This document shows, piece after piece, positions 50,601-53,600 of a stretch of DNA of 64,000 nt (position 1 is its first letter; every line of letters starts with the position of its first letter). The notes beneath the pieces are model-generated. The model did not search any database and had not been told where the DNA came from. It saw only the letters and a program-made list of their open reading frames with translations. The translations under genes were made by a program, and so were the position numbers. Source of the DNA: Mesorhabditis belari. Taxonomy: Eukaryota > Nematoda > Chromadorea > Rhabditida > Rhabditidae. Where the stretch lies: contig CAUEEP010000729.1 of NCBI GenBank assembly GCA_958450365.1, positions 248,001 to 312,000 of the forward strand, read 5' to 3'.

Positions 50601-53600
50601 AGTTATAAACTAAATATTATAACTATTATAAATGCAAATTACAAAATTAATATTTAAATTTAGAGCCACCAAGGCTTGTGCGAAGTCTCTCAGATAAAAT
50701 CGCTTTGGAAACGACTGATGTCGAGGTAAAGAACTGGCTTTTCTACTTTCAAAAATAGATAAATAATAGCTTATTAGCTTTATTATTAGCTTTTTCTTTA
50801 GCTAATCTGTGAATTTCGTGGCAATCCAACACCGAAAATTCGCTGGCTAAAGAATGGTGTGCCGGTGAAAGCCTCCGAGTACTTTTTAATCGATGAGAAT
50901 CGACTACAAGTGTTAGGAGTCGTGAAAATGGATCAAGGTGAAGAATATCATTGTATAGAATGTTTTATAGACAAAGTTAGGCAAGGCTAGTCAAAAATAG
51001 CTTCCAATTACAGGTGTCTACCAGTGCATCGGGGAAAACGAGGCAGGCTCTGTGCAATCGATTGCGCAACTACTCGTGGATAGTGCTGGTGAGTGGCGAG
51101 AGGAAATGAGATTGATAAATTAGCTAAGGCTAGGCTAGGCTAGGCAAGGCTAGACAAGGTTAGCCAAGGTTAGACAAGGCTAGGCAAGGCTAGGCAAGGC
51201 TAGGCTAGACAAGGCTGGACAAGGCTAGACTAGGCTAGGCAAGGCCAGGCTAGGCTAGACAAGGCTAGGCAAGGCTAGGCAATGCTAGGCAAGGCTAGGC
51301 TAGGCAAGGATCAACCAGGGCAAGCCTAGGTCTAGCTTTTGAATGATTTAGCTGACTTCTTCTGGCTTCTTCTGGCTTCTTTTGACTTCTGACTTGTCAA
51401 GTTTTTTTGAGTTAAGTTAGGAGTAGAAAAGTTCAGGCTAGACTAGGACTAGACGTTTGAGTTCAGTTTTAGAACAAGGACTGAGCTTGAGCCTAAGTCA
51501 AAGCCAAGCCAAGTCATGACCAGGTTCAATATCTGCTCTAGAGTCAGGCTAGCTCCAAGACTAAGGCCAGGACCAAGGCCAGGACCAAAGTCAGGATTAA
51601 AGTTAGCTCCAAGACTAAGGCTAGGACCAATGCTAGCTCCAAGAGCCTGGCTTCTGGTTAGTCTATGTGCCTTTTTGTGACCTCTGGAATCCAGACTCTG
51701 GAATCCAGGCTCTGGAATCCAGACCTGGAATCCAGACCTGGAATCCAGACCTGGAATCCAAACTCTGAATCCCCAGATGCTTCTAGATCCTCTAGATATG
51801 GCCATCTGTAAGGATGAATAACAAAACCGAATCGTAAACAGTATTATCAAAGCCTACCGTAACCTAAATCCTGTTTTACATTCAACTTTCTCGCTTCAGA
51901 GATCCTCTATCCAGCTCTGAAAGCTCTCCGCCTTTCGGAAGATTTTGTGACCGAGAGTGAAGAGAGTCAAGCTTTTTCCACTACCGTAATTCCAATAAAC
52001 ATAACGTCAACAGAGGAATTGATGCGTGCAGACGGTTGGAGAGTCAAAAGGAACTTTGTGTACATTAAGCTCAAACGCAAAGCTCAACTTGTAAACGCAA
52101 ACTTTCTAGTTTATTGAATTCTTTGCATCAGCAAAGCAGCAAAGAGCTCATTGCTTGCAAGCCAGCAAGAGTGCGTTTTCATTGAGCATAAAGTACACAG
52201 GAGTACACAAGAGATCTTGCACATTTCTGCATCTTATACTTTCCCATATGAATGTGTGAATGAAAATGAATCCCATCCCAATCCCAATCCCTTGTACCGT
52301 AACCCAGTTTAAGACAGATACAGCTAGACAGACAATAACTTCAGCACCGTTCTCTACAGATGCACTAATCCTTTAACCAAGAAACATATAAAATCACTCA
52401 AATTCCAGACAGTTCAAATTACAAATCACTCAAATTCCAGACAGCTCCTCTATTGCTGCTTCTTCAGGAAAACCAATGCTTTCAACACCGCCATTAGCTT
52501 TGAAAACGACACTTATTGGTGAGTTTTGAATGGTATTTAAGACTGCTCGATTTAAGACGCTTGATTTAAGGCGCTTGATTTAAGGCTCTCGATCCAAGGC
52601 GCTCGATCCAAGGCGCTCAATTCAAGGCGCTCGATTCAAGGCGCTTGATTTAAGGCTCTCGATCCAAGGCGCTTGATTTAAGGCGCTCGATTCAAGGCGC
52701 TTGATTTAAGGCTCTCGATCCAAGGCGCTTGATTTAAGGCGCTCGATTCAAGGCGCTTGATTTAAGGCTCTCGATCCAAGGCGCTTGATTTAAGGCGCTC
52801 GATTCAAGGCGCTTGATTTAAGGCTCTCGATCCAAGGCGCTTGATTTAAGGCGCTCGATTCAAGGCGCTTGATTTAAGGCTCTCGATCCAAGGCGCTTGA
52901 TTTAAGGCGCTCGATCCAAGGCGCTTGATTTAAGGCTCTCGATCCAAGGCGCTCGATTCAAGGCGCTTGATTTAAGGCTCTCGATCCAAGGCGCTCGATC
53001 CAAGGCGCTCGATTCAAGGCGCTCAATTCAAGGCGCTCAATTCAAGACACTCAATTCAAGGCGCTCAATTCAAGACACTCAATTCAAGGCGCTCAATTCA
53101 AGACACTCAATTCAAGGCGCTCAATTCAAGGCGCTATTTAAGATCACTCGATTTAAATGCTATTTAAGGCGCTCGATCTCTCGGTGTTGAATGGGATGCA
53201 CCAATGGAAGCTCACGGAAACATTCTCATTTATCACGTTTTTTATCGAGAAGAAGGATCAACTAGGTGAGAACTTAACAACTAAATTTAAAGATTTACAA
53301 AATATTATTTTAAGAGAACGAGCTATGAATGCATCATCTCGTTGGGTGAATCTTGGATCTCTTCAGCCGGAAACTCTCTACATTATACGAGTGGCTGCTG
53401 AGAATGAGGCTGGTGTTGGACAAAGCAGTGATCACATTAAAGTCACCACTTCAAAAGAACGTCAGTTTTTCAAATAGTTCTTGATCTAGAAGATCCACTT
53501 GATCTTTAGAAGCCGTTCCCGGACGGATCTCTCGTTTGGGAGCACAAGCGACCGACTCGGAGAAAATCGAGGTCCGTTGGGAGCCACCAACAACGGAAAG

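Follow-up and report, generated by a model that had tools for sequence, protein, structure and literature searches.

How does an intron come to be filled with copies of the splice junction at which it ends, and how is the proper acceptor then chosen among them? These questions are raised by a 650-nt intron in the unc-40 gene of the nematode Mesorhabditis belari, which lies within the 64-kb (64,000-nt) stretch of DNA analysed here (the window), part of an assembly of 207.6 Mb in 714 contigs. The intron is largely occupied by a minisatellite, the units of which resemble the edge of the following exon. We consider it likely that this array is a mirage, the name given in amphioxus to tandem duplications across an intron/exon boundary, and that it arose by neutral tandem duplication in a minisatellite-rich genome, with selection upon the exon holding it back and the last acceptor being chosen.

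The unc-40 gene and its array

By homology the + strand of the window carries, at approximately 44300-62000, a member of the unc-40/DCC/neogenin group. The closest homolog of a 685-residue piece of the spliced product is found in M. spiculigera (66% identity over the query), followed by those of H. polygyrus, C. elegans (T19B4.7), other nematodes and vertebrate DCC. Its Ig and FN3 ectodomain and its transmembrane region are collinear as in the known members, and fn3 was found. The exons were placed by hand with splice motifs and then aligned to the M. spiculigera protein P0001, to which 926 residues of the model are alignable; the 5' end of the gene is outside the model. The exons and intron at issue are as follows, with the exon numbers of an earlier, sequence-only reading of this DNA and with splice junctions marked here and below by a slash:

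52441..52518, + strand: upstream exon (exon 15), placed by alignment to M. spiculigera P0001; donor TATTG/GTGAG
52519..53168, + strand: array-bearing intron, 650 nt
53169..53265, + strand: downstream exon (exon 16), 97 nt, beginning GARSLGVEW; first part of an FN3 domain

The downstream exon joins the donor at 52518 in frame. That joining 52518 to 53169 keeps the FN3 frame had been proposed in the sequence-only reading, and it is borne out by the in-frame model, by the alignment with P0001 and by the identity of the residues GARSL. The same reading started the upstream exon at 52468, which was incorrect; the real start at 52441 aligns with P0001 and the other homologs. Within the intron and across its 3' end the following elements were recognized:

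52534..53143, + strand: minisatellite, 44 units of approximately 14 bp, each end marked by the 9-bp direct repeat TATTTAAGA
52534-52542 and 53135-53143, + strand: the two copies of this 9-bp repeat bounding the array
52624..52903, + strand: higher-order core, five identical 56-bp repeats of four 14-bp units apiece
53030..53113, + strand: second higher-order block, three identical 28-bp repeats (AAGGCGCTCAATTC AAGACACTCAATTC)
52900..52916, + strand: array copy sharing 17 nt exactly with the junction
53162..53178, + strand: true 3' splice junction, ATTTAAG/GCGCTCGATC (7 intronic and 10 exonic nt)

Counted from their AAG starts, the units number 44 between 52539 and 53140, to which the exon adds its own copy; about 45 copies between donor and acceptor had been claimed. 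The units which deviate from 14 nt are the first (15 nt) and the last two (12 and 26 nt). A pattern search of the window allowing up to three mismatches returned 45 matches, 41 of them in a 14-nt ladder at 52554-53127, one at the edge of the exon (53166) and three elsewhere, as against a mean of 4.86 and a maximum of 12 in shuffled sequence. The most diverged units are found at both ends of the array, including those beside the exon, and the core is homogeneous. The clearest register of the unit is TTTAAG/GCGCTCGA, in which it corresponds to the last six bases of the intron and the first eight of the exon at the true junction. The 14-base unit had earlier been equated with the 3' splice site and the first bases of the exon; as written then it was a rotation of one variant, but its junction content was correct and is confirmed by an exact 17-nt match over the junction (ATTTAAGGCGCTCGATC; 53162-53178 = 52900-52916), of which 10 nt are exonic. 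The first 16 nt of this sequence also occur at 52676, 52732, 52788 and 52844.

In a search of the 207.6-Mb assembly that skipped common words the array matched one place, and a dispersed repeat family was rejected as its identity. For a comparison of copy number between haplotypes, this one place and one unc-40 locus with the array-adjoining exon were found; the 18 assembly matches included no second allele or paralog of unc-40 carrying that exon.

Origin and growth of the array

The sequence-only reading had suggested that the exon edge be compared with that of a sister species. At the protein level GARSL is identical in M. spiculigera, the exon edge of which is TTLIGARSLGIEWDQP, and C. elegans (STSSGSRFINVEWDPP) keeps G-x-R. 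Among the 58 of 77 homologs which passed the alignment filter at this site, mostly vertebrate DCC, the arginine is present in 56, the next tryptophan in all 58, and the preceding glycine in 10. Since the frame is right, GARSL is the same in M. spiculigera and the arginine is so widely retained, the bases at the exon edge were probably not overwritten by the array. The edge being conserved in the protein, the array being confined to the intron and the unit containing exon sequence, the array was most likely derived from the exon.

Two other accounts of the resemblance have to be weighed against this direction. Tandem arrays occupy 22.9% of the window, and 42% of the sequence in the modelled unc-40 introns lies in them (as against 7 of 3148 exon bases); in such surroundings an unrelated minisatellite might resemble an exon edge by chance. 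We find this scarcely credible, since the match crosses the junction, sits in the adjoining intron and has an ungapped score of 17, whereas the highest of 625 cross-intron scores within the gene was 11, the junction windows of 26 introns being set against the gene's other introns (bodies of up to 1500 nt, exons after 59600 excluded). Junctions scored above 11 with their own intron in three of the 26 cases, namely at the preceding exon (22.5), at the array intron (17) and at 44531 (11.5). Alternatively the array may have come first, the exon edge being overwritten from it by conversion or slippage. It is the core of the array that equals the exon edge over an exact 16-17 nt, whereas divergence is greater in the units closest to the exon, which speaks for such a course; the overwriting would, however, have needed to recreate residues that are conserved in M. 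spiculigera (GARSL) and C. elegans (G-x-R), and we judge it very unlikely. As the units beside the exon have diverged further than those of the core, later exchange between array and exon, by re-seeding from the exon or by conversion, may nonetheless have occurred.

Under the explanation that we prefer, duplication of the exon's junction into its own intron, the process would have started when 14 bp spanning the 3' splice junction of an unc-40 intron of approximately 49 nt were duplicated in tandem; 49 nt is the length left when the array is removed and the flanks are joined. Each duplication would have placed a spare junction upstream in the intron, free to multiply, and growth to 44 units with the 56-bp and 28-bp repeats now observed would have proceeded by slippage or unequal exchange. 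The last copy would have stayed in place, since the conserved GARS with which the first FN3 domain begins is encoded there. The array would need no function.

The starting length is in line with the rest of the gene. Tandem arrays of at least 30 nt are present in 17 of the 26 modelled unc-40 introns, and the nine with less are 41-128 nt long. A dispersed one-exon piece of unc-40 with partial introns (G000:C690:465834-465965, L047) matches 54050-54437 of the window. The part of it which corresponds to the intron at 54268-54437 (170 nt with a 10-bp array) is 40 nt long and free of the array; the match runs on from the preceding exon and stops at the acceptor, which reads TTTCAG in the fragment and TTTGAG in the window. 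Lengths of 40 and 170 nt for the corresponding stretches indicate that arrays are gained or lost in unc-40 introns which are otherwise very short. The fragment may provide an analogy, from the same gene, for a short intron that gains an array, although array loss there is also possible.

Some other features of the window were noted by eye. Several of its array units look partly palindromic (AGTACAAAGTAC, CTTTAGAAAG). An unc-40 intron at 49100-49400 appears to contain a foldback (inverted-repeat) element, with seemingly similar sequence at about 28047-28140, and tRNA-like sequences are located at 42710-42810 and 56180-56280, within or beside unc-40.

Junction duplications elsewhere and the question of seeding

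Further duplications over splice junctions are present in the window:

52391..52444, + strand: two-copy duplication over the 3' junction of the upstream exon (ATTCCAG/ACAG at 52440/52441), 22 nt identical, spacing 32
60700..60740, + strand: duplicated 5' junction of a later unc-40 exon (ACATCAG/GTAGAT; 60705/60706 and 60733/60734), score 14
11370-11640, - strand: 51-bp duplication over the 3' junction of a predicted exon at 11536, score 27

The exon end at 60705 agrees with ..GRHQ/PIAK of P0001, and exons of a SNF2 domain lie further on in the same - strand as the predicted exon at 11536. The scan took in the edges of predicted exons in the window (106 acceptor and 106 donor), and it also returned weak matches, scoring 11 to 12.5, at 9986, 13635, 15110, 16880 and 44531. 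Matches at 59015 and 59282 were discarded, being inside an array and not at real exons. The exon finder had been trained on unc-40, where its 34 predictions on the same data included exact matches to 25 of the 27 exons that are 30 nt or longer; the exons elsewhere are mostly predictions.

A second scan, of 49 non-redundant loci totalling 169,791 bases, tested 176 edges at acceptors and 178 at donors. Its clear acceptor case is an ABC-transporter exon (GLNTLVGDRG..., ABC_tran by Pfam) in locus L070 (acceptor 2470), where 16 exonic bases recur unchanged 80 nt upstream. A diverged version of this junction duplication is present in the paralog L071 (acceptor 2520), likewise 80 nt upstream of the same exon. 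The fourth base of each spare copy (T or C) is that of its own gene's exon, a pattern hinting at local conversion or independent duplication. The matches in L038, L040, L057, L063, L075 and L079 are weaker, on predicted exons, or in repeated sequence, and those of L079 were rejected as junction duplications because they look like locally repeated sequence. In a scan of 221 edges in which duplicate loci were included, scores of at least 11 were obtained at no acceptor and at three donors (L038, L039, L040). Among the loci are near-identical kinase loci at different contigs or places (L014/L015/L031, L016/L017, L020/L021, L022/L023 and L033/L035), which may be haplotypes that the assembly has retained or the outcome of recent duplication.

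Recurrence does not make the junction a preferred starting point. Duplicated copies (score of at least 14) were found at 7 of 161 acceptor junctions, a set of acceptors with at least 220 nt upstream which belong mostly to predicted exons, compared with 49 of 483 intronic control points (15, 15 and 19 of 161 in the single sets) and 4 of 142 points inside exons. The seven include one false exon and two paralogs. Fisher's test gave p = 0.023 against the pooled intronic points, 0.013 with the false exon removed, and 0.12 against the -60 set alone. On this sample copies are rarer at junctions than at intronic controls, and the junction was abandoned as an expansion hotspot; if anything, junctions are depleted in duplications, as would be expected of tandem duplication that acts generally but is resisted by exons. 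The sequence-only reading had regarded the exon edge as the seed of the expansion: the direction from exon to array survives as the better one, but edges of this kind are not favoured seeds.

Probable choice of the last acceptor

The intron contains 45 AGs upstream of the true acceptor, 44 at array units and one in the donor. When the upstream exon is spliced to any of these, a stop is encountered before the end of the downstream exon (45 of 45), and productive isoforms from the upstream AGs are ruled out. One such stop lies in the splice site itself:

53165..53167, + strand: TAA in the exon's reading frame, within the true acceptor; first stop for four decoys

Recursive splicing and zero-length exons were also dismissed, the units reading AAG followed by GCG, GCT, ACG, ACA or similar and not AG/GT. 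In a weight matrix built from the 26 other acceptors of the unc-40 gene the true site scores 2.62, the fourth lowest of 27 (leave-one-out), and 24 of the 45 decoys, which comprise 11 distinct sequences in all, score as high or higher (best 4.54). The dozens of decoy acceptors that had been foreseen are therefore present and, by this matrix, many are no weaker than the true site. A previous matrix of 31 acceptors, which included the wrong sites 52468 and 56829 and less certain 3' exons, had placed the true site (4.28) above the best decoy (3.5); this did not hold, and site strength was given up as the reason for the choice of the last copy. Since the true site scores low and 24 decoys equal or exceed it, nothing in the site itself accounts for the presumed success of the last copy.

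The last copy is most likely used because it alone heads a 97-nt exon with a donor (at 53265), as exon definition would have it. Use of a decoy would lead to a premature stop, and the mRNA would probably be subject to decay. A further-reaching proposal, which we advance tentatively, is that the spliceosome faithfully picks the last of 46 AGs even though about half of the decoys look equal or better, by way of exon definition or with the array looped out by a stem, and that introns of 40-50 nt in this genome routinely lengthen by tandem duplication of their junctions.

Such a stem would bring the donor beside the last acceptor, so that the decoys are skipped by virtue of RNA structure. In the centroid fold 52526-52540 pairs with 53153-53167 (15 pairs, three of them G-U), which encloses the whole array; the arms, however, are A+T-rich and belong to the repeats flanking the array, the acceptor's A would be buried, and the whole intron folds no better than shuffled sequence (z -1.3; 3 of 20 shuffles at least as stable). 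Looping as the reason for decoy skipping seems to us quite improbable. Strong secondary structure of the array itself was likewise set aside, a 168-nt stretch of it giving, as DNA, a z of +1.8, worse than most shuffles, beside the value for the intron RNA. It could also be supposed that the decoys are a selected switch, regulated use of poison acceptors causing decay of unc-40 mRNA and tuning the level of the receptor. The stop after every upstream AG and the strength of 24 decoys would suit such a switch, and the C. elegans minisatellite CeRep25B, which carries intronic motifs, is described in the available portion of its report as over-represented near alternative-splicing regions (PMC4039745). 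Yet stops would be expected by chance in extensions so long, and junction duplication is recurrent and occurs less often than duplication at control points in introns, which is what one would predict if it were not selected for. We think a selected switch unlikely, and retain neutral duplication with choice of the last acceptor.

Comparison with known systems

The human minisatellite ms6-16 of the G1P3/IFI6 gene reportedly provides multiple splice donor sites. As in the unc-40 array, minisatellite units there supply a splice signal, but, to go by the title of the work, it is the donor and not the acceptor. The amphioxus mirages are described, in the accessible part of the principal report, as minisatellite-like tandem duplications across the intron/exon boundary, at 5' or 3' sites, with normal splicing (PMC3087553). 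Examples named in the accessible text are Adh3, the globins BflGb6 and BflGb9 and troponin C, and PGBD5 repeats have been likened to them; the ends of the clusters escape homogenisation, the Adh3 units measure 10-72 bp, and the two haplotypes of BflGb6 carry 6 and 3 units (PMC3087553, PMC3902484).

By the structural features tested, and with its junction supported by homology, the unc-40 array would qualify as a mirage. Its unit spans the splice junction and exonic sequence, the array is head-to-tail in the intron adjoining that junction, and a homogenised core of identical 56-bp repeats is accompanied by diverged first and last units. It shares with the amphioxus mirages, as far as their accessible descriptions go, the boundary-spanning tandem duplication and the diverged cluster ends; they are cephalochordate, with undisturbed splicing reported, whereas the unc-40 array belongs to a nematode. 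It differs too in its 44 copies of an approximately 14-bp unit, compared with the few units given for BflGb6, and in its higher-order repeats. CeRep25B is, like the unc-40 array, a nematode minisatellite tied to splicing; from what is accessible it is a repeat with intronic motifs, while the unc-40 array matched a single locus and shares the sequence of the adjoining junction. An intronic VNTR of human ABCA7 affects splicing (PMC5954066); it too is an intronic tandem repeat, but is not described in the accessible text as a copy of a splice junction. We found no report of a nematode mirage in the open-licence PMC literature searched.

The unc-40 array would thus extend a kind of structure that is uncommon but already described, the amphioxus mirage, to a nematode and to a high copy number. 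It renders a mechanistic question testable, namely how one acceptor is chosen among dozens which have the same core and are not weaker by score; if the proposal of faithful choice is true, nature has provided in this intron a saturation test of how a 3' splice site is selected. In gene annotation, splice-site predictors are liable to be trapped by such arrays. Lastly, the array suggests a route by which very short introns may grow, in which the intronic duplicate expands freely while the coding copy is held.
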